Part shown: positions 1 to 49,500 of the stretch, piece by piece
Layout of the letters: the number at the start of each line of letters is the position of its first letter
Position numbering within the stretch: position 1 is the first letter of the stretch
DNA from: Arbacia lixula
Lineage: Eukaryota > Echinodermata > Echinoidea > Arbacioida > Arbaciidae
Length of the DNA: 64,000 bases
Assembly (NCBI GenBank): GCA_963669155.1
Contig: OZ022585.1
Span: forward strand, 13,409,269 to 13,473,268
Reading direction: 5' to 3'
Made by a program: the position numbers and the translations under genes
The notes under the pieces: generated by a model
What the model was told of the DNA's origin: nothing
What the model saw: the letters and a program-made list of their open reading frames with translations, nothing else
The model's database searches: none

Positions 1-1000
1 AGTACTGATGCTCGGAACTTCTCCAGCTTTAGGATGTAGCATTTGTTCACTACACACCTATCTGTCATGGTATTTATTTGTTGACATCACTATATTTCAT
101 ACGATAATTATTAACGATCTAAAAGACTTTGTCGCCAGGCCCTTAACACAAGCCATCTATTATTGACATGTACAAGTAATCCAAAGCTAACCAAATGCAC
201 GTCAACCTAAACAAATTTGATATACATTTTGAAGGGGAAAAAAAAGGTATGGTAACGTTTTAGTATTCATATTGTGGACCTCTCCGGTGCACAATCTCAC
301 ACAAAATACACACAAATTTATCACTTATAATATGCCACAAAATGTGCCAAATTACTCTGCCATGTATCAGGACTATACCCTCCCTTTTACATAAAGCCAA
401 CAATACTTTAATGCCTGGATGGCTCTGTCACTACAACTAATTCCCCATCCCCCTGAACTTAACATCTAAAGGTATACCTGTTTCCATGGCATGTCACAGC
501 TGTTAAGCCCATAGTCATACAGAAGTTCACGTCCTTCACTAATATCACTGTTGAATAAAGTAATTATCACAAACAACTAGAAATGGGAAGTTGAAACCCT
601 ACATACTTAAAAAGAACATGTCTTATCAACAAGAAACCTGTAGATATGGGGCAAGCATTTTATAAAAAATAACCAAAAGGTATAAAAGCACAAAATTTGG
701 ATTAGTCTGTGAAATCTATCTACCATACATTACTGCTATACATGTGCATGATATATCTAACAAATCACAAATTATAACAGCAAATAATTAACCAAGTTAT
801 TTTTAAGATATTTTCATAACATGTTTGTCAGTTTAGTTGCTTTGTTTGCCTTCAATTTAAAAGTCACGTTCCATCATGCCTAGGTAAATCACAAAATAGT
901 CTGTTTTTAAGAGAACTTTAACAAAAATTTATAATGAACAAAACATTGTTACCAAACGGTTGATTAGAAATCAGAAAGCAACTAGATGAATTCTCGAATG
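1..1000. other. AT-rich noncoding stretch
   Basis: No open frame, splice-bounded exon, RNA gene or clear repeat could be supported here. The sequence is AT-rich with short homopolymers, like the other intergenic or intronic spacers of the window. Confidence 0.5.
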
Positions 1001-1166: not shown

Positions 1167-1645
1167 GCAATGAAGGAGGCATAAAAATAAACAGCTCTAA
1201 GAAGTGAAAAAAGCCTTACAACCCTACCCACATGGTTGACTCGGACAGAATTTTGTGGCACTGATATCACTCATAATTATAGGACAAGCTAATGTCCGTT
1301 CACCATGAACATAATGTAATGTTACTCACCATAGAGCAAACAGGCAGAGATGAGCTTTGCTATCATGCTCAATGACTTTCATCCTACAATTTCTTTCACA
1401 TCTTTCACCATGATTGCACAGCCTTCCAAGCCTTGGTCCTCTTCTTAGTTCAGCTGTTGCATCAATACTGCAGTATACAAAAATGATCCCATTAATGTTG
1501 ACAGCCATTACAATTTTGGGCTTTACTGAAAAAGAAATACCCCATTTACACACAAAGAAAATAAATACCTACTCCAATTCTTTTGTACGGAAGATTTTAT
1601 AATCTGCTTTACATCCAGCTAATGGATGTCGATCCCGGAGGGGTA

Positions 1646-2630: not shown

Positions 2631-2874
2631 CAAGAAATGAACACCTATAATCCAGCTACTTTGCGGTGGCCTAAAAACCTAACTCTTACACTTACCAAAG
2701 TTCCTTTCCATGCAATCTAAAAAAATATCTGTACACACTTCCAGTTCCATCTAACTCCTCACGCTCCTCTCTCCTGTTCGCCTCCTCCGCGTCAATTACC
2801 TCACCAGCATATTCTGCGATGAACTGTCCACTTGTGATTTTGTTAACAGAGACGACTACGCGACCTTCAGAGGA

Positions 2875-2945: not shown

Positions 2946-3350
2946 CGGTAAAACTGTAAAAACAATGACCAATAACAATGTGTTAATCATACACATTCGT
3001 AGATCATACCAATGAAGAAACCAATCCCCTTGATGAACTGAAGCTACTAAGGAAGAAAAAAGACAAAGAGAAAGAACCCAAATAAAAACTGATGAAAGAA
3101 AATGCATAGCTATACCTGCTACAAATGAGTCTACATTTATCAGTTGAAAGGTCTATTATGTTACCGTAATCTTTCACAAACCATGTCGTCAAATTATACG
3201 CTTTGTGAATTTGTCTCCTTCTAAATGTGATATTGGAAGACACAAGTGGCCTTCGCTCCTGGAGCCATACGCTGAAGGTGTCATAGTTCACTTTTGCACG
3301 GTCACCTGCTTTGTTATGTATATGTGTATGCCAATCCTTTCCAAGCAGTA

Positions 3351-3375
3351 GGGGAGACCGGGTCTAGTTGTTACA
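3351..3375 (+). repeat. Pogo-like element terminal inverted repeat, left
   Basis: The 25 bp match the reverse complement of 6922-6946 exactly. The repeat starts directly after a TA dinucleotide. Confidence 0.93.
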
Positions 3376-4312
3376 ATTTTCACATTTTCAGGTCTGTACA
3401 AAAAATGAATAGAGGAATCGACTTCATTTTTGCTTTGAGGATACCTTATGTCCTCCTTTAATTAAAAACAGTACAAACTTTGGGAGTCCAGATAATATAA
3501 ACAAGATATTACGTAATCAATAAACACAAAATTTTGTAACAACTTTCCCCGATGTTGGGGGAAGTTGTTACAGCACATGGGGTACTTTGTTACACCGTAG
3601 AAAGTCAACTCAAATCGGGTAATGCAGATCTGACTTGTTAGGTAATTGTTAATATTAACCTGTCTGGGTGTGCATGTTAGCCTATGCTGGGGTGTGTGGG
3701 TGTGTTGGGTGTGTGTGTGTGTGTGTGTGTGTGTATGCACGCTTGTGAATTTTGTGGGGTTTCTTATTTTATAATTATAGGATACACATTAATACTAACA
3801 TGGTTATTACTTTCAGATTTACATTAAAATTGATCATGGATAAATGGAATTAATTTGTTTAACCACTTACTAAACAAAGCAAACTTACTTCCAAAAGAAG
3901 CGTAAAAGTACATGACATGAGTACCGAACAGTGATTCAAAATAATTATGTATGCAACATAATTCTTGAAAACTCACAAGAAAGTCAACGATTTCATTTAT
4001 TTAAGAGTGTAACTTGTAAAATCTGGATAAGCTCAATTAAACAATATATGTCAGCATATACAATAATTTTCATTATCCAGATATTCAAAAATGAATTTAA
4101 ATGGGCTTTGAATACAGAATAAGAACAGAAAATGTTATGCAATGATGAATGTTCATGATTACAAAGGTTGACATCTAAAACTCCCAACAGTGGTTTATCT
4201 TAAATGATTAACTCCAATTTTGATCCCATAACCTGCTCCTACACACATTTTCATTTTGCACTCTTTCCAAATCAGACAAAGTATTCGTGATACTTATAAA
4301 AAGTAAGCGTAT

Positions 4313-6458
4313 TTAATCGCTGTCGCTGGACTCCATCAAACTACTGCCACAAATATCACAGATGTATGCAGTCCCAGATCTTCCAGGGGTGCACTCATAG
4401 TGGGACCATCCACTGCACTTCACACATTTAATCCACCGTTCACCAGGTGCAGAATTCGAGTAAGAGTCCCCACAAACCAAGCACTCACAGTCGGCAGGCT
4501 CTGCAAAGTTCTTCTTCTTGTTCACCCTTTTTTTAGTTGGTTTAAGTGTTTTGGCCTGCTTCTTCTGCTGTTGTTCTTGTTCCAGCTTCTCTTTCTCTGG
4601 TGTGCTGGTAAGAATGGCTGACATCCGCTTTCGTCTACCACCTCGTGCCTGCTTCCTTGGACCTGCTTTAGGGAAAGGCGCGATGACTTCAGGAGACTTG
4701 GTGATCGTCGTCATTCTAGGTGCGTCTCTGCTTGGTCCTGGCTGCATGCTATGTTGATCCTGCAGCATAGGAGAACCTACATTTTGCTCTGTATGTGGGT
4801 GTGACTCATCTTGACGGACCTCATCTGGGCGGACGAGTTCTGGTTCCTCTGGAACAACTTCAGCAGATTCATCTGAAGTTACCTCAGCTGGTTCAGCTTG
4901 GGTGGCCTCATGTGGGCGATCAGTTACATAGTTTGGAAGGAACTCGCTTTCATCGAAAATGTTGCGGTCGAATGGCGCAATTCCTGTGCATTGGAACCCC
5001 TTAGGGATGTTGGTCGCAGTTGCAGCCCGCGGAAGAGCTTCCTTCACTATTGCTGGAATGTCATAAATGGTCATTGTCTTCCCCGGATGAGACTTCATCC
5101 ATCCATCACTGGCCTCATTGACGAATTTCTTGAATGGGCCAAACACGCTTCGATCAAGCGGTTGAAGCTTGTGGGAGCAGTGAGGTGGGAAAGAGACAAG
5201 CACTATACCATGGTCGCGGCAGAAATTTATGACAGAAAGTGCAACATGAGACTCGTGATTATCCAGCAGGAGCAACACTGGATGATCCTTGGTGCACCTG
5301 GTCACTTCCTGAAAGTGTTTGAGGAACTTTAGGAAGTCATCTTCCTTCATCCAACCACTCGGATTAGCAGAACCACAGCATCCAGGTGGGCCGTTAGCTA
5401 TGAAATGCTCTCGAAAGTTCACTCGAGGGAAGACAAGCATTGGAGGTATGCTGTTTCCGCTTGCACTCACAGCAAAACAGACAGTCACAAGCGTCCCACG
5501 CTCTGCGCTTGTGACAGCTCCAACTTGTTTGACACCTTTTTGGGCTAAGATCTTTCTCGGCTGCTGAACTGTGGTGACCCCGGTCTCGTCACAGTTGTAT
5601 ATATCATTGACTGCAAACTTATACTTGTCAAGAACGGCTCCCAAGTTGTCGAAGAAGGTGTCAACATTTGCCTTGTTGAAGCTTGTGGCTCTGCTTAGGC
5701 TGGTTCCTTCTGGTGTCCGAATGGAAAGCTGTGGGTGCCTTTTCAAGAATTTTGCACACCATTCTACACCTGCTGTTTTGTTTTCATGCCACGTTTTTGG
5801 GCAGTTGATACTATTCTGGAGAGCGAATTGAAAACTTAGTTTCCTGAATTCTTTTGTAGTCAGTCCATAATAAATCTGCGAGGCGAAGATCACGTAGTTC
5901 ACTAACATATCTTCCTCTTCAGGGTTGAATACCATGCGTGGCTTCGCATAACCAGTTGTTGGAGTTTGTCCCTTGCGTATCTTAGAGCAATACCTCTGCA
6001 AAGTCATGAAGTTTACCTGCATAGAGTGAAAATAAAATTGGAAAGAAAATCATAACTTTCAAATCAGGTGCTATGCTTATATAATTCATATTCATGAGAC
6101 TAGTGATATAGGCATACCTTTCGACTAAAATTAAAATATAATTAATACTGATCATTTATGAGTTAAGATTTTATAAATCAAATAACAATGAAGTATACAT
6201 TTACAAGAAATATTTCGAAGCAGTCAGCTCTACTCCATATGCTGGATCATTAATCCAGCATGGAGGCCCCTTCCACAGCGCTGTAAAGAAATGCTTTGAT
6301 AAGCTTCTCTAATTCGCTGTATCTATACTCACATCAAACTGTTCTGCAACATTTCGAAGCGATTCGTTGTTATCTATCACACGCCTAGCTGCAACAGCCA
6401 TAACATCGTTAGGTGTTGAACCTCTGTTTGTTTTTCTTTTATAGTTACGTGGCATCAT
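4313..6458 (-). CDS. Pogo/Tigger-like DDE transposase with C-terminal PHD-like zinc finger (two exons)
   Basis: Exon 1 is 6458-6333 (ATG, 42 codons, ending at a GTGAGT donor). Exon 2 is 6016-4313 after a 'CTATGCAG' acceptor. The join is in phase and gives about 609 residues. The join completes an N-terminal psq-type helix-turn-helix (ending EQFDVNFMTLQRYCSK, residues about 15-60). A CENP-B-type second DNA-binding domain follows (about 70-150), then a DDE_1 catalytic core. The acidic residues are visible at about D185 (YNCDETGV), D294 (LLLLDNHESH) and D330 (KLQPLDRSVFGPFK). An acidic/Pro-rich linker and a basic patch (GPRKQARGGRRKR) lead to a C-terminal Cys/His cluster (CECLVCG..CVKCSGWSHYEC..CDICG) of PHD type, which may bind chromatin. 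No frameshift or stop interrupts the frame. The role is cut-and-paste transposition of its own element. Confidence 0.93.
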
Positions 6459-6921
6459 GAATCAGACTTCCTGTAGGAAACAAAATAAACCATAAATTCA
6501 ATTGAAAGTGCATTGGGGTAAGTTGTTACACCACTCGATTCTCCAGACGGGTCAAGTTGTTACACTGTAACAACTTGACCCAGTGCGTTTTCAAAAACTT
6601 GAACACACGTAGCCAATAGACAATCAAACATCACGTGTTGCTACTTTCACCAAAAGACAGCCAAAACACGCTTCTTTCAACCACAAACTTATCACTTATT
6701 GGAGAAAAATGGATTTGGTGTAATAAAGAAAAATCGAATTTTTCAAAATTTTACTCGGAGAGGTAAAAAAGTGTTTTTTGGACCTACCTTCTACATGTGA
6801 CGTCCAGGCAACACCAGATTTCGCATGTAGAGATCGTTGGCTATACGTATTGATTTGATATTACTTGTAGCGCCATCTTTTGATCACATTTGGAGAAAAT
6901 GACAGTGTAACAACTTGCCCG

Positions 6922-6946
6922 TGTAACAACTAGACCCGGTCTCCCC
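6922..6946 (-). repeat. Pogo-like element terminal inverted repeat, right
   Basis: Exact inverted copy of 3351-3375, followed by TA at 6947-6948. Confidence 0.93.
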
Positions 6947-7091
6947 TAGTTCAAGTTTGGTGAGCTCACCAATATGATAGCGGGATCCACGCGAAGAATT
7001 GATAAACTCCCCTTCCTTGATGAATCTATGAAATGAAGCTTTTTGTGTAGGAATGCACAAAGTGACTTCACTGTCTGAGCCTCCTGGATCT

Positions 7092-8493
7092 AAAAAAGAA
7101 TAAGACAGAAAAGGGAAACAAAGAAATGGGAAGTGAACAGAAATCTGATGGTCAAGGAGTGATAATACTCAAAGGGCATTTTAAAAAAAAGTGAAATGAT
7201 GTTAGTACAAAAAAATGGAACTCTAACATTTCTTTTTAAAGGCAATATACTGTACTGGGAATTGGGAAGACAAAAAGCCTTCCAAAGATGATCGTGAGCA
7301 ATCTCCTTACCAATGGTCTTAAATTCATGTATTGTCCATTTTAGAACCTTGCTGAAAGTTATTTGCCCTCAAATGATCCGCAATTACTGTCATTAGTGAT
7401 TAAATCACAAATCTTCCAAATGTTCGCAGTCAATGCCCAGCGGGCGATAATTTGCACATATTTATTCATCACGTATGCAAGAACGTACGAGGCTTGCATA
7501 CTTAATGAGGTAGTGAGGAGACCATTTCAATCGGTGATTACTAGCTTTCTAGTTGTCCATTTTCCACAAATTTAGTATTGTTTTAAAGGTCATACTTCAA
7601 AGCTTACGTTTTTTGGTATAAAAAATCATGTTCAGCATATTTTGGGGTGGATATTTGGGCCCAAATCATGAGAAAGAAATAAAATCTTTTCATCTAAGTT
7701 CAAATGAAATTTTCACATCAAAATAATCCTTGCGTCATTAAGATTTTGATATTGATTTAAAGTGTAGACATTTTTCTTTCAAAAAATGTAACAATAATGC
7801 AAGTACATGACGTACCAGAGTCAGGAACCAAGATAAATCATGCCTATGTTCCTCCAAAATGATTCGAACTGACAATGATTTGCCGGTGCGATAATCGAGC
7901 GTTCTGATTAGTCAACTCTGTCACATGAGTTCGGCGTGATCACCTAACCTGAGCGATCAGGATCGACACAACTCTTTGTCTTTCCCCGAAAGTATTAAAT
8001 CGTTTAAATTTGCTTTTGGGTTGTTTTCATGGGGGCTTGTTAAAATCATGTGTCGTTTGTGATTTTGATATTTATCAGCAAATGGCTGTACTTTTGTGCA
8101 AAACTTTTGGGAGGGAGGTTTCATACAGAAATTCAGTGACTCTTATATTGAATATTATTTTGCCCCGAAGAAGGCTCTTCAGTCCCATCCATACTATTAA
8201 GTGCTGGTGCAGTAAAGTCTTCATGACGATGCATGCGAGGCAAGAGTATAAGTCATACGTCTACGCCAATTAGTATGATCACTGTAATCTATTTAAAATG
8301 TTTATTATACAATGTACAGTGCAGCGTAGCAATACATGTGCTGAGCTCTAAGAAAGCTTCGTTTGATTAAGTAATTAGAATATATATCCATCTGTTCCAG
8401 ATGTTTGGCTAAATTGGTTCACATTAATTTTTATTAACTGGGTTATGAAACTTTTTTTAGATTCTGGCTCTGCACATATCCATTGCTTGCCCC

Positions 8494-8536
<43 letters not shown>

Positions 8537-10180
8537 GAACACACATCTAGACCTTGAAGCCATTTCAGAGAAGTGGCAATTGGCCAAATATTTATAGCAT
8601 TTTTTCTAAAATGGGCTAGCTGATGCGTATTAAGGACCTACGTACTCCTGCCCACTCTTATAGTTGCGGAGCAAACAAATCTCCATTTCTTTTCTAGAAC
8701 GTCAAGACTCCAAGGTACAAGTTACTCTTACTTGTTGAACTGCTCATGAATGGCAGTTCAACAATCTTCAGGTCACCTAAAAGATCTATTTAAGAACAGT
8801 GTAACTCCTGAGATGGGGAAGTTGCCCTGTATGATCATAATGATTTGATAAAGACCATGTTATTTTTTTGTTTTTGTTTTGTTAGTTTTTCACCAGCAAG
8901 ATGGAGGGGGGGGGGGGGGGGGGGAGGAGGGCGGCTTTTGTTGGCACTACCCTCTTCAAAGCATTAATAGCAGAATCTTAATACGTATTCAGGTCATTTC
9001 ATTGTTGCTGGAAACAAAGTGTTCAATCTCATCTTAGACTTACACATGACTCACAGCCTAAATATTGTTCTGTAATCAATATTATGAGCTCTGACCACAA
9101 TCTTATACAGTGTACATGTATCTTTAATAATCATGACTAAATACGCAATTCTGACTGGCTTTTCGACAATACAACGCGTATATTGCAAGAGTTGAAAACG
9201 AGGGCAATTAATATGTACATCGCATTGTCATGCGGTCAGTCAATATTGCTATTATTACCCACATCGGACATCTTGAGCTGTAGAAAAAATGTGGAATTTT
9301 GCTATCTTAATCGTAAATGTGAATTACAGCAGGCCTACACTGAACAGACTTTCCTAGCATTTCTGAAAAGTGACAAGAACAATTCCTGCTAGAAGTTAAA
9401 AAGGAAAAGGTAAAAAATTATTTCATGGTGCATCTTTTTTTGCATCATTGTACATCAATACATGCGCAAAAAACTGCTTAGCAATGGAGACTGTGCGGCA
9501 ATCTTTCAAGGTACCTTCAGAGCATGAAAATCATAAATCATTGCACACTATAAATAGCTTGGAAGATCGTGATAGCCTTTTGATCAAAGTTCCAGTTACA
9601 ATATGTAAAGGATAACTATTTTCTTCATTAAGGATAAACTGCAATAAACGTGTGACAATTATTCTTCTGCATTTTCTTTTTTCTTCTGACCTTGTATTAT
9701 CACAGGGAAAGCTTATAAAATCTTGGTCAATACGAAAAGATGAATTTTAAAAATATCCATATTCTTCCTTGGTTGCAGTTACCAAGGAAACCATATTCCA
9801 AACAAGTGGATGAAATAAGTTATACAAATCTTCTAATTGAACTTTGATCACTGAAGCTTTATCTTGCAGGTAATGTTCATTTATTTTTCCCCTTGAGAAT
9901 GCAAACTGCTATTACATTAATTAATTACATTTCTGAAGTAGGCATTCATTTTAACAGAAGTGGCTTGTTTGTCACAGGGAGAGTACTCTGCTTGTTTGAC
10001 TTCCTTGCTCATTGATTCTGTGTTACTTTTTAGTTTTAAAGACCGAACTTCAAATGAACTTCTATGTCAGACTTCAATAATATCGTGCATAGATAATTTG
10101 GCAAGATGAAAAAAATATACCCTTCTTTCGTGCTGATTTGTGCATTTTTGAAGCATCTCCAAACTTATCGAGATTCCTTG
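7092..10180. other. Noncoding AT-rich stretch with simple repeats
   Basis: No exon with good splice borders was found. The stretch contains a CA microsatellite at about 8499-8535 and a G run at about 8906-8928. The open frames present are short and lack family resemblance. It could be intron if the exons at 10184-11548 and 3116-7089 belong to one minus-strand gene, which the sequence does not prove. Confidence 0.5.
8499..8535. repeat. (CA)n microsatellite
   Basis: About 18 CA dinucleotides in a row. Confidence 0.9.
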
Positions 10181-10183
10181 TCA

Positions 10184-11548
10184 TCAAAAAAGTTTTCGTT
10201 CAGTCAGTTCAAGAAGAAGTGCTTGATCTTTTACAGTCTGTTGCAAATTTAATAGAAAACAATCATAGGCAGAACATAACAGGAAACTCTTTGATGTTTC
10301 AAACATCTTGGTAATTACTACAATAAATGTCAGAACGAGTACCTTTGACAGCAGATCATCCTCACCTTCTCCAAGTTCACTGACATTTACATGAAATTCT
10401 TCTTCTAGCTCTTTCATTGACTTAGAGGGTGAAATTTTTCGTAAAGCAAATCTTTGGCACGATGGACACAAAACACTATCTTCTTCTAAAAAAACCTCTT
10501 CATTAGCTGTTTGAAGCTGAACAAGAGATTCCTTAGAAAGAGTTGAACACAAATATTTCTTACCCTATGTCAAATTAGATCTGCAAAATGAACATGTTAC
10601 TTTAGCCTTTGTGCAATACGTATTTGTGATCTGTGTTTACTACAGAGTGGTAATAAGTCTGGAATGGATAAGGAATCGAGAGAAAATGCATTATTAAAAT
10701 CAGTCAAGGTACAGGAAACCTCAGTTTCTGAACTTAGATTACACATCAGATAATGAGACAATATACATGGAGGTCGCTCAATCTTTCTTGTTTTCTCAGG
10801 AGTATAAGTTTCAGATTTTAATTTTTCTGGTATATGTATTTTTGGCGGCATGCATCACAAATACATTTATGGACATCTACATTGGGACATTTTTCTTGAA
10901 TTAAAAGATTTAATGCTTCAGATGATGATGAAGATATAATACCTATTTGATGCCCTATTACAGAGTTGACATGGACCACATGGTGTTTTACCACATGGTG
11001 TCTTCTTCCTTACCCAAGGTCAAAGTTCTACTATTTAATGGTATGGGTGAGTAAAGACAATTTGGGCAAGTTAATGGCAGAACTTGGACAGAAGGAGAAA
11101 ACGTAGGTACGGATTGTGTTGGGTTATATTGTTCTGGGGGTCTGGGCAAATGGGATGGAGTATATCCAATTGTAGTCCCATGTTGAACAACATCATGGGA
11201 CTGGCCTATCTCCGGAGATCTGGGCAAATGGGAAGGGGAACATCCCGCTGTGGTCCCATGTCGCTGAGCATCATGAGACTGGCCTATCTCCGGAGGTCTG
11301 GGCAAATGGGAAGGGGAACATCCCGTTGTGGTTCCATGTCGCTGAGCATCATGGTCCGGAAGTCTGGGCAAATGGGACGGAGTACGTGTACACCCAAGTG
11401 AAGGCCGATGTCGCTGACAATCATAGGATGGGCCTACTTGTACCTCTGGGGGTCTGGGTGGGCAGGGCTTGGAAATCTGATTGCTCAGCTGCCCATCATG
11501 TTGACTGCTCATGTTACTCGACAGGAGTTCTGTGCAGTCATACTTGAT
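10184..11548 (-). CDS. Unrecognised multi-exon gene or decayed gene, Cys-containing with Pro/His repeats
   Basis: The proposed minus-strand exons start with 11548-11014, from a 'CTTGTTCTAG' acceptor to a 'TTGG|GTAAGG' donor. That exon holds about four copies of a 26-residue repeat of the type PSHLPRPPEIGQSHDAQRHG, encoded by a 78-bp DNA repeat. The next piece begins at 10942 in matching phase (intron of 71 nt) and contains KCPNVDVHKCICDACRQKY, but meets a stop near 10820. A different frame then stays open to about 10597 (ERPPCILSHYLMCNLSSETE). A further open piece (10552-10343, with DSVLCPSCQRFALRK) ends in a GT donor after DDLLSK and joins in phase to 10237-10184 (TVKDQALLLELTERKLF, stop). 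The paired cysteines suggest zinc binding. The frame change near 10820 and the too-short gap near 10565-10600 suggest decay or sequence error. I do not recognise the family. Confidence 0.4.
11080..11400 (-). repeat. 78-bp in-frame tandem repeat in a putative coding exon
   Basis: A 78-bp unit recurs about four times (clear copies start near 11203 and 11281) and keeps one minus-strand frame open, giving 26-residue Pro/His-rich repeats. The length is a multiple of three and the substitutions preserve the frame, which favours a coding role, although repeat geometry alone also favours an open frame. Confidence 0.7.
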
Positions 11549-24905: not shown

Positions 24906-27900
24906 CTATGAAAGAATTTCATGGAACACTACATTATCAGTGTAAACACCATCTTTTTCAGGGAACTGGCCATTTCGTGTTAGTATTCTGATGTTTCTTT
25001 TGTCTCCAACCCGACTCATTGCAACATAGAGTTGGCCATGGGAGAAGAAGTCTTTTGACAGGTACAATCCAACTCTAAATAGAGTCTGTCCTTGCGATTT
25101 GTTTGCTGTCATGGCAAAACATGGCTTGATTGGAAATTGGCGTCTCTGCATTTGGAATGGAAGAGTTGTGTCTGAAGGCGAGATGGGAATTCTAGGAATG
25201 AAAATCTGCTTCCCTGCATGGACACCCATAGCAACAGTTGCTTCAATCACATGGTCATACATGCTGTTGATCAGATATCTTGTTCCATTACAGTGGCCAT
25301 TTGCAGGATCAAGATTTCTCAGAAGCATGATTGGACACCCTTTTTTGAGACAAAGAATGTGTGGTGGCATCCCTGTAGATATTGTATTGAGGAACTCCAG
25401 AGGGTATTGCTGATGATTCTCACAATTCAGGACCTTGTCAGAGCTGATGTACTCTCTGGGTTGACCTGGGAACCTGTCCATCATGATTTTGTTCACATCA
25501 TCTGTAGCCTGGTTTGTTGGGCATAGTATCCCGCGTGAACAAAGCCACTGTGGAGAAGCATAATCTCTGTCAAGCGAGTCAAACACAAAGTCACACAGAT
25601 CATTGAGTTTTCCTCCTTCAATGAGCATGTCAGCATCAAGTCTAATCTTGTGTTCACCAAGTTCTTTTTCCACAGGGATAGTGCCTTCACCAATACACAG
25701 CAGTGTATCAGCATAACTGTCCCCTCCACTTAACTGAACTCTCATGTTGGTTACCAGTTTCTTGACTGTGACATGCTGCCAGAGTGGAGATGTTTTGAGA
25801 CATGCATTAATGATTTCTGGTCGACTGCCCCGACGTACAACAGGAAGAATTTGTCTCCAGTCTCCTGCAAAGATTACTGTGATGCCTCCAAAGGTGTGAT
25901 CATTTTCTCGGATATCTCTGAATGTTCTGTCAACAGCCTCATACACTTTGCGGTTGGCCATAGTCACCTCATCCACAACCAAAAGACTGCAGCGTCGAAG
26001 GAGTTCTGCTGTTGTGTCTCTCTTTGATATGTTACAGAAAGATGTGTCTGTCAGTGTCTCTATTGGTACTTTACACCTTGAGTGCAATGTTCGTCCATTT
26101 GGCAAAAGTGTAGCTGCAATTCCACTTGTAGCTGTTGCTAGTGCTATTTTCTTCATAGTGCGGACCTTTGCAAGAATAGTTGTTAGGACAAAGGTTTTTC
26201 CTGTACCTCCTGGTGCATCAAGGGCAATGAGGAGGCCTGTACCATTGTTGACCGAGTCAATAGCCAGGTTGTAGACTTCTGTTTGTTCTTTGTTCATGAG
26301 TAGAACATTCTCATGAACAACTTGTTCCAACTCTTGGGTATTGTAGTTTGTTTCCTCACGAAGTTCTCTTGGTGCCATGCGTGTGACGAAACTTGGATCT
26401 GGTTTGGGTATATTGATGTCTTCCATGTTGTAACCATTTCTCTCAACATGCTGCTGTATTTCAAACAGGACTTGGTTGATGATTTCATCTGTGGGTTGCT
26501 GGACGTCATACTCATGCAGCAGGTCTTCAGACAGAATTTGTAGGTGACGGTTCCAAAAGTCCATAGGTTGTGATGGCTGAGTCCATATGAGTATTGTGGC
26601 AAAGAGTTCCCTGAGCTGAGGTCCAAACTTCACCAGTGCTGCTTCTTCCATTATTTTGTCTTTTTCTGTGTCATCATCTAGCAGGCCAAGTTTCAGGCAG
26701 GCAGCAGCAAATGTTTGTTCTTCCTGACCATTGACTGTGCGTAAGTCAGCATAGCATGTAGCACCTGGTTTATGGTAAAGTAGCATTCGCATGTAGTAGA
26801 GCTCTGACTGTCTAGGAGTGAAGCTGATTACAGGAATTCTCCCAATCATGTCGGACGATCCACTGTCATTGTCGTGCTCTTGCTGGATTTTCTTGACCTT
26901 TCTTGATCGTTTCACCCATTTGGTGCCTTTCCAGATGTATTGGCGACAGATGTCTGGATACAGAATGGCTTGAGCTTGTGGATTTGTAGCATTTAGTTGG
27001 AAATAAGCTGTCAGTTTGGTGTTTGGGGGTGGTTTACTGGCCACTTCCTGTGCCCGGTGTGGCTGAAAGAGAACAGTTTGTTCATCTTCAAGGTGAAGGG
27101 GAAGTTTTGTTACTGGAGGGTATTTGTTCAAAATATTGAACTCGTACAGGCGCCAGTAGGCTTCTGACGCACCAACATATCTGGCTGTTACATATCTCTC
27201 TATTTCATTGTTTGTGATGTCCTTTTCCTGTCCATTTGCTAGCTTTACCATGACTTGGTCTGAACCTTTGCAAGTGTACTTGTACAGATATTTGACACAG
27301 CTGACACTGATGACAACTTCAACATTGATGTGTGCATTATACTTTAGACTTAGGAATGGGTTGTATGGCACTATCCAGCGGTTGTCTACTGTAAAGTTTT
27401 TTCCTGTGACCTTTAATCCATGTGTCTGGCCACCATGTTCTTGTGGTCTTCTTCTGTAGTGTGGGTACGTGCCATCAGCAAGAACAGTTTCTTTTCTGTA
27501 CTCTTTGGGGAAGTTTTTTTGGCAGACCTTACCTCGATCTGTAATATTCATGCAAGGGCTGTTTGGATTTACTTGGCCACATGGGCCATGGATCATGTTC
27601 TTTGTGACTATATTGTAAAGTCTGGGATTTGATACTGGGTCTGGTATTTCTGCAGAGACTATCTTGTTGATATCTGATGGAGTTCTTGGTTTGTCAGCAT
27701 CATACATGATCAGCAAGATGTGGCAGTGAGGAAGGCCCCTTTTCTGATCTTCTTTCATTGCTGTGTAGGCTCTCACCTTTCCAAGAACATCGTTCTTTAC
27801 CAAGTCACAGAGTAGAGATTGGAGCTTGATGTTGAACACCCTGACACATATGTCTGGCCGATCACTTGGTTGCTCATTATCAAAGAGAGACCCCTTGATT

Positions 27901-29600
27901 TCAGGCCAACGTGGGTTGCAAGTAAAAGTGATGAAGAAATCAGGCTTTCCAAACTTCCTTACTATAGCCATTGCATCCTGAAATGCTTCTGCATACCATC
28001 GTGGGCTCCCATAGAATGTGGGTGGGAGGATGATTTTCATTCCAGCTCTCATTTCATCGTTGTCATTGACAGCATCCAATAATCCTTTGTATTTATCGGC
28101 TCTGATAGTACTCTGATTGTTTCGAACCCATCTCAGTCGCTCAGATTCAGCTTTAGTGAAGGCATCTGTAGTGTATTGTTGTGTCAGTCTCCTAGATTTC
28201 ATGAGGTGGTTGTCCGAGTTGGAACGTATTTGCAGTTTGTATTTGTAAAATTGTGTTGGGGAAATGTGCTTTGGGCCAAAGGCATGTGGAATCTTAATTC
28301 TATATCCATCTGTTCCATGTGGGAACAACAATATGTAGTGCAGTGGGTCATAGCTACGGTGTGTTGCATTAATTCTTTGTATTTGACCCTGTCTTGTTTG
28401 TAGAATGACATCCTTGTCATATGCCTGTTCACCTGGCATGATAACTGCCACCTCGCAGCCTGTAGGTAAATTGTAGCGCCGTGAATGTTCACTGGTTGGT
28501 TTCTTTTCAGCACTCAACACCAGCTTTGCCTCAGGATGGTTATCTGCAAACTCAATCGCTGACTTGAAAGAATGGACATAGGGATTGACCCTGTGCAGGC
28601 AGTTCTGGAGAGAAGTGAGTACATGAGGATCTAAATGTGAATTGTGATTCAGTCTGTTTTGTAGCTCATGCTGTGTATCATGAAAATAGATTTGGGCAAA
28701 TTTGGGGTGATCCCCATCTGTTGGCAATAGTGAACCTATTCTGTGGTAGATTTTCCCCTGGATTTTGAAGGTGGGACTGAATCCAGGCATGCTTTGTTCA
28801 GTACACCCGAGAGAAGCTAAAGCTAGGGCGTTGTTGTATGATCGCAGTTTGTCAAGGACTGTTGATCCATCTGCGCTATATATCTGTTGTATTTCTAGCG
28901 GAGCTGGGGGTTCAAAGGGCAATACAATCTTACCCCTTTCACAACAAAATCCCAGTCTCTCTTCTTTCCACCGGTAGGCATTGCAAAATTCACATTCATT
29001 TCTAGCATTATACAAACATGGTAGTTCATGGTGACATTGGCTAATGGAAAATTCATCCTCAATGAAATGCTCAGTGTCTTTTATAACACCTAATTTTTTG
29101 TTCGAACGTATTGCTTTCAGTGTCTTTTTTGTCCTGTCTCTTTCACGTTGGGCTTCAAGTTGAAGTTCTCTTTTCTCTGCTGTCTCCGTAATTCTTGCCT
29201 GATGTTGTCTTTCTCTATTTTGTACCCGACGTTGTTGTCTATGCTCTGCTGTCTCTGTGCATCTTGCTTCACGTTTTCTTTCTCTATCTTGTATATGTCG
29301 TTGTAGTCTCTGTTCTGATGTCTCTGTACATGTCGTCTGTTGCTTTCTGTCTCTATCTCTTGCCTTTTGGAGTTCCTGTTTCTCAGCTTTTGCTTGATTT
29401 CTTGCGTGTTGCCTTCTCTCTCTTTCTCTTGCCTGACGGAGTTCCTTTTGTTGTGCTGTTTCTTTGGCCAATACATTACGCTGCCGTGCTCGCTGATCAG
29501 ATAGCCTGGATGTCCGAACTTCAGGAGGCTCAGTACGCCTGGCTATCTTCCGCCTCTGGACTCTAGGGCTGCATCTCGAAAGGCTTCTCTTGCGACCCAT
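24906..29600 (-). CDS. Helitron Rep/helicase protein, intact, 1564 residues
   Basis: This single uninterrupted frame starts at ATG 29600. Residues about 1-165 are Arg/Gln/Glu-rich with about 20-residue repeats (TETAEHRQQRRVQNRERQ type). The Rep (Helitron-like N) region follows: FITFTCNPRWPEI near residue 560; the HUH-type box GLPHCHILL near 625; and a tyrosine-rich VKYLYKYTCKG near 770, which supplies the two catalytic tyrosines. The C-terminal third is a Pif1-type superfamily 1B helicase: Walker A APGGTGKTFVL near 1127, Walker B LLVVDEVT, then FAGDWRQILPVV, and the final MTANKSQGQT..GQLYVAMSR motifs near 1500-1530. The protein nicks and unwinds DNA for rolling-circle transposition. All catalytic motifs are present, so the copy may be functional. 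No apurinic-like endonuclease domain (Helentron type) is fused. Confidence 0.96.
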   Translation of the reverse strand: MGRKRSLSRCSPRVQRRKIARRTEPPEVRTSRLSDQRARQRNVLAKETAQQKELRQARERERRQHARNQAKAEKQELQKARDRDRKQQTTCTETSEQRLQRHIQDRERKREARCTETAEHRQQRRVQNRERQHQARITETAEKRELQLEAQRERDRTKKTLKAIRSNKKLGVIKDTEHFIEDEFSISQCHHELPCLYNARNECEFCNAYRWKEERLGFCCERGKIVLPFEPPAPLEIQQIYSADGSTVLDKLRSYNNALALASLGCTEQSMPGFSPTFKIQGKIYHRIGSLLPTDGDHPKFAQIYFHDTQHELQNRLNHNSHLDPHVLTSLQNCLHRVNPYVHSFKSAIEFADNHPEAKLVLSAEKKPTSEHSRRYNLPTGCEVAVIMPGEQAYDKDVILQTRQGQIQRINATHRSYDPLHYILLFPHGTDGYRIKIPHAFGPKHISPTQFYKYKLQIRSNSDNHLMKSRRLTQQYTTDAFTKAESERLRWVRNNQSTIRADKYKGLLDAVNDNDEMRAGMKIILPPTFYGSPRWYAEAFQDAMAIVRKFGKPDFFITFTCNPRWPEIKGSLFDNEQPSDRPDICVRVFNIKLQSLLCDLVKNDVLGKVRAYTAMKEDQKRGLPHCHILLIMYDADKPRTPSDINKIVSAEIPDPVSNPRLYNIVTKNMIHGPCGQVNPNSPCMNITDRGKVCQKNFPKEYRKETVLADGTYPHYRRRPQEHGGQTHGLKVTGKNFTVDNRWIVPYNPFLSLKYNAHINVEVVISVSCVKYLYKYTCKGSDQVMVKLANGQEKDITNNEIERYVTARYVGASEAYWRLYEFNILNKYPPVTKLPLHLEDEQTVLFQPHRAQEVASKPPPNTKLTAYFQLNATNPQAQAILYPDICRQYIWKGTKWVKRSRKVKKIQQEHDNDSGSSDMIGRIPVISFTPRQSELYYMRMLLYHKPGATCYADLRTVNGQEEQTFAAACLKLGLLDDDTEKDKIMEEAALVKFGPQLRELFATILIWTQPSQPMDFWNRHLQILSEDLLHEYDVQQPTDEIINQVLFEIQQHVERNGYNMEDINIPKPDPSFVTRMAPRELREETNYNTQELEQVVHENVLLMNKEQTEVYNLAIDSVNNGTGLLIALDAPGGTGKTFVLTTILAKVRTMKKIALATATSGIAATLLPNGRTLHSRCKVPIETLTDTSFCNISKRDTTAELLRRCSLLVVDEVTMANRKVYEAVDRTFRDIRENDHTFGGITVIFAGDWRQILPVVRRGSRPEIINACLKTSPLWQHVTVKKLVTNMRVQLSGGDSYADTLLCIGEGTIPVEKELGEHKIRLDADMLIEGGKLNDLCDFVFDSLDRDYASPQWLCSRGILCPTNQATDDVNKIMMDRFPGQPREYISSDKVLNCENHQQYPLEFLNTISTGMPPHILCLKKGCPIMLLRNLDPANGHCNGTRYLINSMYDHVIEATVAMGVHAGKQIFIPRIPISPSDTTLPFQMQRRQFPIKPCFAMTANKSQGQTLFRVGLYLSKDFFSHGQLYVAMSRVGDKRNIRILTRNGQFPEKDGVYTDNVVFHEILS

Positions 29601-29822
29601 TATACGTAGGAAGCCAAGTCAATACCCATTGAGTGAAAAAATGTGTTCGTCATAAATGGAGAACTTAGAGAATTCATAATTTTTCAAGTACGGTAAGTTT
29701 AGGAAGTTCAGGAAGTTTTAAGGATAATCAAAGAAATTCAAGCAAGACATAAAGAAGAATATATTTACAACTTGTATCAAGCATATAACACATGTTATAT
29801 ATCCATGAGAGTGTACACAGCA

Positions 29823-40429: not shown

Positions 40430-41838
40430 CCAGCATTTGATAGTAGTCTAGGCCTAGGGCTAGGCTATAGATTTCTAGATCTAGAGCCTTTTAAGTAACA
40501 AATTTATCATACGTTAAAATGACAGAACGGGGCTTCACTGCAGAATCATTCACAATAAAAGAAATAAATAGGTTTGTCAGAAAGTCGTACTCACCGGTAC
40601 GGTAACCACTGAAAACATCGGCCGATTACGGTATGTTGTTTACGTTTCAGCAGCACGCACACATATGCATATATGCATGCAGCCAGCGCATGAGTAAGTA
40701 CGTACGGTATACCGTACCATACCCGGTCGACGGTCGGCATGATGGCATGCATGCTTTGTATTTCGCTGACCCGAGAGAGGTAAAAGGGACTGGTAACTTC
40801 GAAGCTATACTCAGGGCTGCGAAAAGGAATGCCAAAAAGTTACGAATTGCAAAAAAAAATTAAATAATGCGAGCAAAATACCACAAACAACCCCCCTCAT
40901 GACAATCTGTGAACAATTTAACCATGTTTAGAAAAAATTCCAGCTCGATTGAGTGGAAAACCACGGAGAAAAGCTGCGTCAAACAAACGGAAGGACACAC
41001 AAGATTAGCCAAATTATAGTAAGGATTATTATTATTATTATTATTTATTTGACCATAAAGAGTAACATTATATAATAACAACATCATAAGATAATACACG
41101 AGCAAAGGACGCAGTAAAATAGAATACAGATGACAGAATGAGCAGCGTGTGAGTCTGGGTGTCACCACGCGGGTAGTCCAGCAATCCGCCGACAACGAAC
41201 GTTGGTGGCGCATCACATACAAACATTTTTCACCCTGATGTGTTTTTTTTTTTTTTTTTTTTCGGGCGGACAGGTTCGTGGAGTCGCAATCAGTGGTCTG
41301 GCGCCGTGTGCGTACTATGCATGTGAATCAGTGGCGTATCGTGTGTGGGAGAAGAGGCAGACGATAAAATACGGCCAGTCGGCCTATCTGGACTACCACG
41401 CGGGTTGCGAGCACCACAAGCTAGTTTGGAGAGACAATTAGGACCTCAACGGGAGCATTAAATTAACCCTATCTGTGTTATTTCGGTGGGTCTTTGTTGC
41501 ATCCAAATTGCCGATAGCTCTACGTGCATAAGGGGACCTCAACGCGGGCGCTTATACCCGTGTTTTATTTGTTCTGTAGTTCGTCCTTGAACTTAGCTCA
41601 CATCAACAAGAATAATAGTGTGTTGGCTGACTGACGGGAAATAAACAGTCATTATTCCGCGCTGATAATGGATTACATGAATGATTACTCCCTCTGCGCG
41701 TGTCTGCTGAAGTGTACTTTATGATTGCGTGAAAACATACTGAAAACGCACGCTAGTAAGACTTGATTTCAGGTATCTACTCGGAGTTAATTGCATAGCT
41801 TATTTTCAAATTGAGAGTGATATCAGCTTCAGGGTACG
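40430..41838. other. UGT upstream region
   Basis: Contains ATT repeats (41027-41044), a T run (41239-41261) and moderately GC-rich DNA at 41270-41450. An acceptor-like 'TTGATTTCAG' at 41763-41772 may mark the start of a 5' untranslated exon that holds the UGT start codon. No TATA box or initiator could be chosen with confidence. Confidence 0.35.
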
Positions 41839-43558: not shown

Positions 43559-46500
43559 TTTAATCCACAGCTCAACATCCTGCCTGGCTTTCCTAATTGT
43601 GTTTAATCCACTTCCGTTTACGTTTCCCCTTTTTCTTTCAGGAATATGAAGACTTCGTCCTGGGATCCGGAGATCATGGGTTCATCGTATTCACCATGGT
43701 AATCATATATGCCTTCCTTAAAAGTTTTAATCTTTAATTTTCAGGAATTTGATAGGAGAGGGAGAGTTTTTGGGATGTTTAATTCCATTGCTGTCTGTAT
43801 TTGCAGCCAAGCTGTTATTAGCTGTTTATGACAACCGAAAATTAAGCCCTATACCCCCAACAAACCACCTCCAATGTTTTGTGATTGTGTGATGTGTTTA
43901 TACGGGTCTGAGTGACCTAAACAACACGTGAAGTAAAACTTCAGTATCATGTGAAGGATATTCTTGTCTCAACAAACAAGAGTAGGCTGATAGTTATGGA
44001 AGTATAGGCCTACAAAAAACATTGATGTATATTGATATGACACAACAGCATACACTTTAGAGAAACACTTTTCTTTCTTTATTGTCACCGTTATAGGGTA
44101 CGTTTTTTACCGAATTTCCTAAGCCTGAAACCGCCGAGTACTTCGCGCACGCGTTCAGCCAGCTACCGTACAGAGTGCTATGGCGCTACACAGGAAAACG
44201 CCCGCAGCAGCTTGGCAACAACACCATGATCGTCGACTGGCTTCCACAGAATGACCTTCTAGGTAGGGGTCGAATTTAAGTTCTATTCATGTGTTTTTCT
44301 TTCCTCTCTCCCTGCTTTCTTCGTCTTGTTTCTTCTGCCGTCCTCGTTTAACCTTTCTCGTTGTGCTCTTAATATTAATGACGCACTAATAATGACCTGG
44401 TACATGACGTACCTTATGGTGATATATACCGTCTATGAACATGTATTATGTAGGACTCTGGATCTATGTAAGTGTACACGTGTATCATGTGTACTGGTTA
44501 TTCATAGTAGGTAACGCCGGGAAAGGCAAATTTCCACGTGATGAGTGGACCATAAAATTATTTATCCATTTATCGTCCTTCCTAATTCCCTGTTGATTTT
44601 TTACTTCCTCATGTTGATTGCTGTTTCCTGAAAGAAACATGATATGAACATTGATGAAATCTCCGATATGAATGGAACAATATAAATGATGTGGCTCCAG
44701 TGCAGGATTGGAGGACGGCATAAATACTGTTACATGTATACGATTGCACATGTGAAATGGACCATTAATCGGTAAATTAAACGAGATTTAAATGAAATTT
44801 AAGATTGAAGTTTAATTATGATTCTACGAAGTATAAGCCTAATATGAGGAATCAGGTATGGACGCACACCTGTGCGGGCCGATTGGAACCACATATTTGA
44901 AGAACAAAAAAGGTTCTTTGATATGCAAATGAGGATGCCTCATTGAAGGTATAAGACCCCGCATGTGACAGAGGTAGAACCAGTGTTAAAAGCCATTCAG
45001 GGCTCACCCAACTCGCATGAACGAAGTGCAATTTAGGGAGGGATAAAAAATTGGGACTCCCGTAAAAGTCAGACACACCACAAATGGGAGGGACCTGATT
45101 CCTCATATTAGGCTTATACTTCGTAGAATCATAATTAAACTTCAATCTTAAATTTCATTTAAATCTCGTTTAATTTACCGATTCTACTCCGTATTCAGCC
45201 TAATGAATCGGAATCAGGTATGGACACATTCAAAGCCGAGGTTAGGTGAGCCAGAAAAACGATCACCAACACACGACTCGTCGTGGTACGCACCCAAACT
45301 CCGCATCGCACACAGATACAGGCATTCTTGAAGGACAACAACAAGAAAACAACGGGACAAATTATTTCAAGTTCATGCACTTTAATAGGGCTTGTTTCGC
45401 CCTAATATTTTCTTTTCCATCGTTTTTGATATAAAAACAGACATGATAATAGTATCAACAGTTCGTCAACAGGTATTTTCCATGAGTGACAGTTAACTGA
45501 TTTAGCTACACACCTTTCACAACAGAGTGAAAGAATACATCGCGTGGTGCCATGAGCGGTTTGTTATAAAACAAAGCAAAAGTCTTTGATGACGTCCACC
45601 CAGCTGTGGACATAACGACGTCAATACTAGCACCATTCCGCCAAGCTGCACTTGACGAAGCTGACCTGGTGCTGTGTCCTTGGAATTTGGTTGTGTCAAT
45701 GCCTGCCCTCGTGAGAACAGTCTTCAGCCATCGACTGACAGTTTGTGAAGATACATTGCGATGCGGTTTGTTGAACGAGACGAAAAGAAATTTATTTTGC
45801 AGTCTATAGTTCGTGGTCCTTTTGAGATACTCGCGCAAGACTTGCAGCACGCAGATGCGGTCGTCTTGAGGGTATGCTCGGAGTTTTACGACAGGTGGGG
45901 GCTTCCCCGGTTTTCTCGTCTTGGTGACTTCTCGGATGAAGAATGTAACCGTAGACTCGGCAACAGTCGTCTCGCGAGTATCCATCAAGGAAATGGTTTG
46001 TGCACGCTGTCCTGATACAAGTGCAACTAGCATGACTAGTTTTAGTGTTAAATCTTGCAGTGACGATTCAGAATGAGGGTAGATTTCCCGCAGAAAATTA
46101 AGAACAATATTAACATCCCATATGCAGCTGTATTTGGGTAACGAAGGCCGTAGGTTAAAGACCCCTTTCAAAAAACGAGATATCAATGGGTGTGAACCTA
46201 TAACATATCCTTCACAGGGGATAACCAAAGAAGATAACGCACTCCGTATCGCATTGATAGTGCTATATGAAGCCCCAGAGTTAAACTCGTAGGCTAAAAA
46301 TTGCAAAACAACGTTCACATTTGTTCGAAACGGATCTCTTTTCCGTTCACGACAGAAACAAAACCATTTTTTGATGGCGGAGTTATAACAGCGTCTCGTG
46401 GAAGCTCTCCATGATTGGACGATGACGGCGGCAGCCTCAGGCGGAACTCCTCTCCCTTGTAGGCTTTCCCGGAAATATGACATGCAACAAGCCTCATCCG

Positions 46501-49500
46501 ATTGTGCAGAGGGTGCGGTCTGTCCGTAAAAGGAAGAGAGAGAAGGTCACGTGAAGCAGGCAAAATAATGGGAATGCTAACAAGCATATTCAGGAGTTTG
46601 GGGAACCATGGTTGGGTACTCCACAGGGGAGCAATTAAGATAACCTCCGCTCCATCCTGCATGACTTTACTTAAAATCCTACTTATAAGACAAAAAGGGG
46701 GAAAATATAGCCCCTGCATGTACCCCAATCCTGAAAAAATGCATTCGTTGCTGAAGCATCAGGGTCAGGAAGCCAAGAAACAAAGCGTGGTAGTTGTCGG
46801 TTAATGCGAGAGGCAAACAGATCCACATTGGGAACAAAGAAATTTTCTGTCAGTTTACGAAAGACAGACTGATTCAGCATCCATTCAATATTGTCATTAA
46901 AATTTCTCGAGCAAGTGTCGGCTCTAGTGTTTTGAATGCCCGGAATGTGGTGTGAAGATAACCATATGTCTTTATCGGCACACCACATCCAAATTTTCTT
47001 TGCAACGGAATGTAGATCCTCGGAATGACAAGTGCCTTGCTTATTGACACATGAAACAGCAGTGGAATTGTCTGACTTCACATGGATGTGCTTGCCTCGC
47101 ATCCCTGAGCAGAATGATTGTAATGCAAAGAGTATCGCAAGGAGTTCGAGTACATTAATATGCAAACTACGTTCTGACAAATTCCAGTGACCCTGAGACT
47201 TCAGATTCAGAGTGGGGCATATTGCACCCCACCCATGCAGTGATGCGTCTGTTTCAATTTCGATGTCAATGAGTCTATGAATGGGCGCCGAGTTATTTCG
47301 CACGTGCGACGCCCACCAAGAAAGACCCTTCTTAGCTAGGGTGGAAATTTGCATTTTCGCATCGTAATTATCATGACAATGTTTGAGAGCCGCAATTTTC
47401 TCCTGTTCGAGATCGCGTCTGAAAATAGCGCCAAAGGCACGGCTTTTTCCGCGGCTAGTAACATGCCAATGACTTGTGACATTTGGCGAATTTTAGTGCA
47501 GTTTTTTTGACAACAGATCAGAACACGCTTTTGAGATAGTTTCGGCCCTCTTAGTAGGCAACGATATCGTCATTGTATCGGAATCGATCGTGAACCCCAA
47601 GAATATTAGTCGCTTGCAAGGTTCAAAAACTGATTTCTTTCTGTTGATGACAAAACCTAACGATTCAAAGAGCTCTACTCGAGCTTTCAGGTTATCTAAA
47701 CATTCGTCATAGTTCTTTCCAATTATTAGGGCGTCGTCTATGTAGTTGCATGAAATAAAGCCCTTGTTGCGTAGAAAACTAATAGCAGGTTTCAAAACCT
47801 TAGTAAACACTCTTGGGGAACTTGACAACCCAAATGGTAATACACAAAATTGGTATAATTTCTCTCGCCACTGGAAACGTAAATATTTTCGATGAGAGGC
47901 GAATATAGGTATGGAAAAATATGCATCCTTCAGGTCAATAGAAGCCATATAGCACTCAGGATCAATAAGTTCAAGGGCTGAGTTCAGCGTTTCCATTTTA
48001 AAGTGATGATAGGTAACAAATTCGTTTATTTTCTTTAGATTAATCACTGGACGAACACCGCCATCCTTCTTAGGCGTAATAAAAATATTCGAAATGAATT
48101 CGCCTTCTTCATGAGAGCAAATTTCGATGGCTCCTTTTTCAAGTAGACTTTTAATTTCCTCGTCAATAAGGAAAATTTCTTTCTGACTGAATTGTAATTT
48201 TGTAGGCACCTTCTCTTGAAAGGGAAGGGAATCAAATTCGATACGATAGTGTGAAACTGCCTCTAGTACCCAAGGGTCTAAGGTAATACGTTTCCAGTGT
48301 GAGAGAAATTTTGCCAACCTTCCGCCAACTACGGGCAAGGAAGTTAAATCCCCGGTGGGGAAGCTCACCGTCTCGGTGGTTACTATTCCGCCGGTTTCTT
48401 GCTCCTCGACGGCCGATCGTTGTTCCGTTTGCCCCAGGATCCCCGAAACCTTCTGGGCGGGAATCGCTGACGGTAGTCTCTGTCCGTCGTGCGCCGCCAG
48501 TTTAAATCTGAGTCGGTCTTGCGCTGGTTGCGAAAACGTGCATGGGGAGCAGGATAGCGATTATCCAGGCGAGAGGTCTGCCCGGCTCGCAGGCCTAGGC
48601 GATGAGTATCTAGTAGCTCCTTGCAGCGCTGGGGGAGGTTATCCCCGAAGAGGATCGATGAAGTGGGTAGGGTAGACTCAGCTGAGCAAAGTGGCTTGAA
48701 CGCCGGGCTGAGCTCGGGACGAATTAACTCACGACGTTTGGTGTTGAGCTCACAGTTTGCGGCCCCAAGAATTGCCACTCCATCCAACAGCAATTTGGCA
48801 ATCTGTGGTCTGTTCTCCCCTGTGTCTTGGGCTTTCAGTAACCCGTCCAGGGCTCTGGTGATGGGAATAACAGCATGGAGGTAGAGCTGCTGTATTTTTT
48901 GAAGTTTATTATCTAGCGCTTTAGTGGAAGATTTAAGCGCAGCCCAAATCTCAGGATTGACTCGTGTGTGAATAACACTCTCACAGTTGCTCGGTCTGGG
49001 GTAAGCATCAACTTTTTCCTTCAGCGAGTCCTCGTTAGGTTTGCTACGCAACAATTTGTTGATAATTGCCGCTAGTTTTTCGCCGATGGGTTCACCGACG
49101 GCTTCCTGCGATCGTGTCAGTAGATCGGCATAGTCCCCCAATAGTGTAGGGTCGATTTCTGAGCCCTCATCAATCTCAGCCGCATCACCACCGGCGGAGC
49201 TCGAAGCCCTCAAGCTGCTGGTTGGGGGTAACAACGAAAGATTGGAGAGTAGCAACCGCGTCTGCCAGCGCCGAAACGGCTGGGCTGTCAGTAGAACATG
49301 GTTGGGGCGTGAAGCTCTCCGCCCGAGCGCGTAAAGGTTGCGCATTCGGGGGCCAAACCTCCCGGGAACCTGACGGTACAGTCGGGGGTAGCTGTGATTC
49401 CTCCCGGGCACCTGACGGTACATTCGGGGGAAGCTGTGATTCCTCCCGGGCACCGTTGACCGGTGCATTCGGGGGCAGCTTAGAGATGGTACATGGAGCT

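Follow-up and report, generated by a model that had tools for sequence, protein, structure and literature searches.

Transposons of the pogo superfamily are described in the main text of PMC7386202 as elements of 1.2 to 5.2 kb that duplicate a TA target site and carry end repeats of up to 40 bp. Their transposases, according to the same text, measure 300 to 977 aa and combine a DDE_1 domain with a DDxD triad and a DNA-binding motif of the HTH_psq, HTH_Tnp_Tc5, or similar type; DD35D spacing is given there for Passer and most Fot/Fot-like elements (PMC7386202). We analyzed a 64,000-nucleotide stretch of the genome of Arbacia lixula, referred to here as the window, that contains an element matching this description in its length (3,596 bp), its TA duplication, and its end repeats (25 nt), as well as in the size (609 aa), DDE_1 domain, and DD35D spacing of its transposase (PMC7386202). 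The element differs from the described ones by a C-terminal finger resembling a PHD domain (22.5 bits, below the Pfam cutoff of 24). The word PHD is absent from the main text of both PMC7386202 and PMC7325037, and among the matches listed, neither this element nor a pogo transposase carrying a PHD finger is described in any title or abstract opening. We regard the element as a putative pogo-type transposon, a fit that is based on structure, domain, and spacing. It lies within an exon whose relatives resemble, in their N-terminal part, chromo-barrel proteins of the ARID4A and EAF3/MRG type; unlike that part, the interrupted C-terminal domain has no Pfam match. Beside the exon, three in-phase exons give a SET domain, possibly that of a KMT5A-like protein, and this neighbor is a candidate separate gene. 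We estimate a probability of about 0.7 that the locus represents a young pogo transposon in an exon that was already an unconstrained remnant.

Reexamination of the sequence placed the ends of the element exactly where an initial annotation had put them (3351 and 6946), with the same TA duplication and perfect end repeats, which lengthen to 27 nt if the flanking TAs are included. The pogo-like identity proposed in that annotation was likewise borne out, not only by the TA and the end repeats but also by the transposase, in which the DDE_1 domain scored 60.9 bits (Pfam cutoff, 22). The transposase frame, which had been called uninterrupted, is so within each exon but not overall, since the protein is encoded in two exons on the minus strand (Table 1). 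Its matches to HTH_Tnp_Tc5 (19.3 bits; cutoff, 22.2) and HTH_psq (12 bits; cutoff, 20.4) fell below the Pfam thresholds. We presume, from sequence motifs, that D185, D294, and D330 are the catalytic aspartates; placed in this way, the second and third are separated by 35 residues. The 10-nt motif WGTTGTTACA occurs eight times in the window, and all eight occurrences are within the element, towards its ends. The transposase is predicted to be active: it would recognize the end repeats together with the internal copies of this motif and would cut with the D185/D294/D330 triad. The element, whose transposase gene is intact, probably reached its present site by cut-and-paste, entering a TA within a coding exon and duplicating that TA. 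A phmmer search with the transposase against solved structures found no relative, and in viral contigs six pattern matches included no confirmed relative.

TABLE 1 Positions of the features at the interrupted exon and its surroundings, numbered from the first letter of the window
Feature	Position	Strand	Basis or remark
Last SET-domain exon with stop, neighboring gene	466-547	-	SET-domain match, phase
SET-domain exon, neighboring gene	1330-1467	-	SET-domain match, phase
SET-domain exon, neighboring gene	2696-2864	-	SET-domain match, phase
3' part of interrupted exon	3116-3348	-	Coding probably once ended near 3135-3133, by comparison with relatives
TA target duplication, left	3349-3350		Sequence inspection
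Pogo-type DNA transposon	3351-6946	-	3,596 bp, transposase on minus strand; ends, target duplication, copies
Terminal inverted repeat, left	3351-3375	+	25 nt, perfect
Transposase exon 2 with stop	4313-6016	-	DDE_1 domain and C-terminal PHD-like finger (just below Pfam cutoff)
Transposase exon 1	6333-6458	-	42 codons, helix-turn-helix-like, below Pfam cutoff
Terminal inverted repeat, right	6922-6946	-	25 nt, perfect
TA target duplication, right	6947-6948		Sequence inspection
5' part of interrupted exon	6947-7089	-	Joined frame, relatives, duplicate
Dispersed repeat	7234-7426		About 190 bp, often inverted pairs
Long multicopy element pieces (7427-8633, 8939-9500, 9500-10500)	7427-10500		88-94% identity to other copies

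A DNA search of the window's own assembly (607 Mb in 590 contigs; copy counts are lower bounds) recovered at least seven full-length copies of the element, including the one in the window. All pairs of these copies differ by 1 to 5 substitutions. Between the window copy and each of the other six there are 2 to 5 substitutions and 0 to 9 gap columns over 3.6 kb, and two substitutions in the window copy, at 6267 and 6690, are private. The 609-aa frame is intact in all seven copies, with identical proteins in five and one change each in the other two, and every copy is flanked by TA on both sides, each at a different site. A search for the end repeat plus TA at up to 3 mismatches gave 14 matches, all of them exact and all accounted for by the two ends of the seven copies, and the reversed pattern gave none. 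Across the 607-Mb assembly, this pattern revealed neither relics nor short derivatives that share these ends, although such a search would miss pieces of the element without both ends. The nearest other transposases in the assembly share 41 to 45% identity over long stretches, and one 44-residue fragment shares 50%. These results strongly support a very young element family and a very recent insertion, the latter already suggested in the initial annotation, although gene conversion among the copies could give a falsely young look. A more tentative proposal is that A. lixula acquired the element very recently, possibly through horizontal transfer, and that the element is now in its first spread. 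Consistent with this, the seven copies are complete and keep their frame, the search found no additional end repeats of this kind, and in the 607-Mb assembly no relative of the transposase exceeds 45% identity over a long stretch. We consider this possible but do not favor it; if it is true, the insertion should still segregate in the population.

The window also contains other features that may be mobile or coding. A 1,570-aa open frame with Helitron_like_N and PIF1 domains (24906 to 29618) marks a Helitron with an intact-looking frame. On the minus strand at 45506 to 49513, frames for a tyrosine recombinase of the phage integrase type and for a reverse transcriptase lie side by side, in what we presume to be a DIRS-type retroelement. 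A UDP-glucuronosyltransferase-like frame at 41821 to 42831 matches about the first half of the Pfam model.

With the element in place, the reading frame of the exon, followed from the 7089 side, runs on into the element, where the 21st codon is a stop. Removal of the element and one TA leaves one minus-strand frame open for all 124 codons, from 7089 to 3116, as first reported, with 5 and 14 stops in the other two frames. Of the two splice-like borders proposed for this exon, the one before 7089 is a plausible acceptor. The "donor" at 3116 (AG/GTATAG), by contrast, is probably not a real border, because the frame is closed by a stop codon close to this position in the inspected relatives of the exon. 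A duplicate of about 640 bp outside the window (L044; C10:13406028-13406665) is 90 to 93% identical to both flanks. Its exon is continuous, has only one TA where the window carries the element, and encodes a protein 87% identical to the joined peptide. Because this duplicate spans the junction without the element, the flanks must once have been contiguous coding sequence, in agreement with the earlier claim. This empty site is paralogous, not allelic. Among the 40 of 1,978 candidates that were scored in a search with the flanks, we recovered one identical copy (the window itself), the local duplicate at 90%, and repeats, and saw no second allele in the assembly. If rates are equal, the insertion would date from roughly the most recent 2% of the period that has passed since the exon was duplicated, because the window copy of the element has two private substitutions in 3,596 bp, compared with 5.1% divergence in the compared codons of the exon.

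Homologs of the joined peptide, which the initial annotation had called for, were found at more than chance level: the same genome holds 18 further matches with 28 to 36% identity, 17 of them firm (E ≤ 2.1e-4; best, 9.9e-11) and one weak (E = 0.24). The joined peptide itself has no match in Pfam. In relatives with long frames, profile searches of solved structures matched the N-terminal region ahead of the exon's domain to ARID4A (E = 1.3e-7) and eaf3 (E = 2.8e-5). For the interrupted C-terminal domain, the sole solved chain matched wholly within it has an E value of 0.26. Judged by sequence comparison, the exon is the C-terminal domain of a multicopy family whose members bear a predicted chromo-barrel-like domain at the N terminus. 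All 16 inspected relatives have a stop within about 8 codons of a conserved D[LF] after a GN-like motif (a comparison that left out L038 and L043 and whose rows are not independent). The L044 duplicate also stops at the family position; the window copy has no stop there. Eleven of the 18 family loci make up two sets of near-identical dispersed copies, one of six (L028 to L033) and one of five (L034, L036, L037, L039, and L040), with about 91 to 99% identity over long stretches, flanks included. Two more loci resemble each other. Sequence comparison suggests that the exon's family has itself been recently amplified or mobile.

The initial annotation concluded that the insertion breaks a host gene, and this was not supported. 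Across 118 codons compared between the window exon and its duplicate, we counted 3 synonymous and 15 nonsynonymous changes, one of the latter turning a codon of the duplicate into an internal stop (dN/dS, 1.41), so that no constraint is detectable between the two copies. The differences mostly predate the insertion. If both copies had been constrained at an omega of 0.2, the probability of at least 15 nonsynonymous changes among 18 would be 0.0004. At 4.8%, the mismatch between the copies in the exon is slightly below the 6.3% of each flank but is still consistent with a remnant. In addition to its missing stop, the window copy is altered at an R and a G, each conserved in 16 of 17 readable rows, and at a further R that is conserved in 12 of 16. 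Searches of the window and of another 20 kb past its start did not find the family's N-terminal half (best E, 0.29). A control search for this half was positive in six of seven loci, three of which were sources of the queries yet were found by other queries too. Upstream of the exon, a dispersed repeat begins at 145 bp and is followed by pieces of a long multicopy element to at least 10500. Candidate upstream exons of the same gene at 10.2 to 11.0 kb were rejected, as the sequence belongs to a multicopy element; the peptide from two frames there has three dispersed matches with 96 to 97% identity, in frames of 1,050 to 1,768 aa.

The exon could nevertheless come from a working gene, in which case the recent insertion would have created a loss-of-function allele. 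The 124-codon frame is open in the window copy, whereas the duplicate has an internal stop, and the acceptor at 7089 is good. Among the relatives, which occupy 18 places, several have long open frames. A G held by all 16 readable relatives is kept in the window copy and lost in the duplicate, and likewise a P at a P/C position. Constraint at an omega of 0.2 on the window copy alone would still give 15 of 18 nonsynonymous changes or more with a P value of 0.13. In addition, L026, a relative that has the same exon-type start, lacks the N-terminal half within its 1.5-kb flank. Set against the dN/dS of 1.41, the changed conserved residues, the lost stop, the N-terminal half that was searched for and not found, and the repeats directly upstream, these points leave a working gene unlikely. 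We therefore prefer the interpretation that the exon copy was most likely an unconstrained remnant before the element arrived, and the host would have lost little from the insertion.

Another interpretation makes the exon a 5' exon of the neighboring SET gene; the protein cut by the insertion would then be a SET protein. The three SET exons lie downstream of the interrupted exon on the same strand, and their phases match, giving one frame to a stop; when joined, they score 66.3 bits against the Pfam SET model (cutoff, 22.4). This gene may resemble KMT5A. A weak alternative donor inside the interrupted exon (ACG/GTAACA) would join it to the SET exons in frame to the stop, but such a phase match has a 1 in 3 chance of occurring, and with the donor at 3116 the frames do not match. 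The exon's relatives terminate at a stop codon of their own, and for most of 37 collapsed SET loci no exon relative was found within 30 kb. With these points against it, we judge a shared gene improbable. Exon relatives do lie within 20 kb of SET matches at three other places (C10:12.09 Mb, C12:2.61 Mb, and C3:8.19 Mb), compared with 0.04 such pairs expected from the numbers of loci (18 and 37); of the three SET matches, only the one on C3 is firm, and the other two are weak (E = 0.028 and 0.17). At L049 (1435 to 3198), a SET segment lies in a long frame that continues as tandem, near-identical short repeats, and two other loci score alike.

That the joined frame arose by chance or as an assembly artifact is very improbable, given the paralogous proteins, the empty duplicate, and the presence of the element at seven different sites, each time bordered by TA at either end, even though the data come from a single assembly and no second allele was seen among the 40 of 1,978 candidates scored.

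An interrupted open exon is thus insufficient on its own to claim a newly broken gene. The C-terminal half of the multicopy chromo-barrel family has no Pfam name and may be of separate interest. The locus provides a well-resolved case of an animal genome in which a DNA transposon family is at an early stage, and if the element did enter A. lixula only very recently, a PHD-bearing pogo transposon would have been caught at the start of an invasion.
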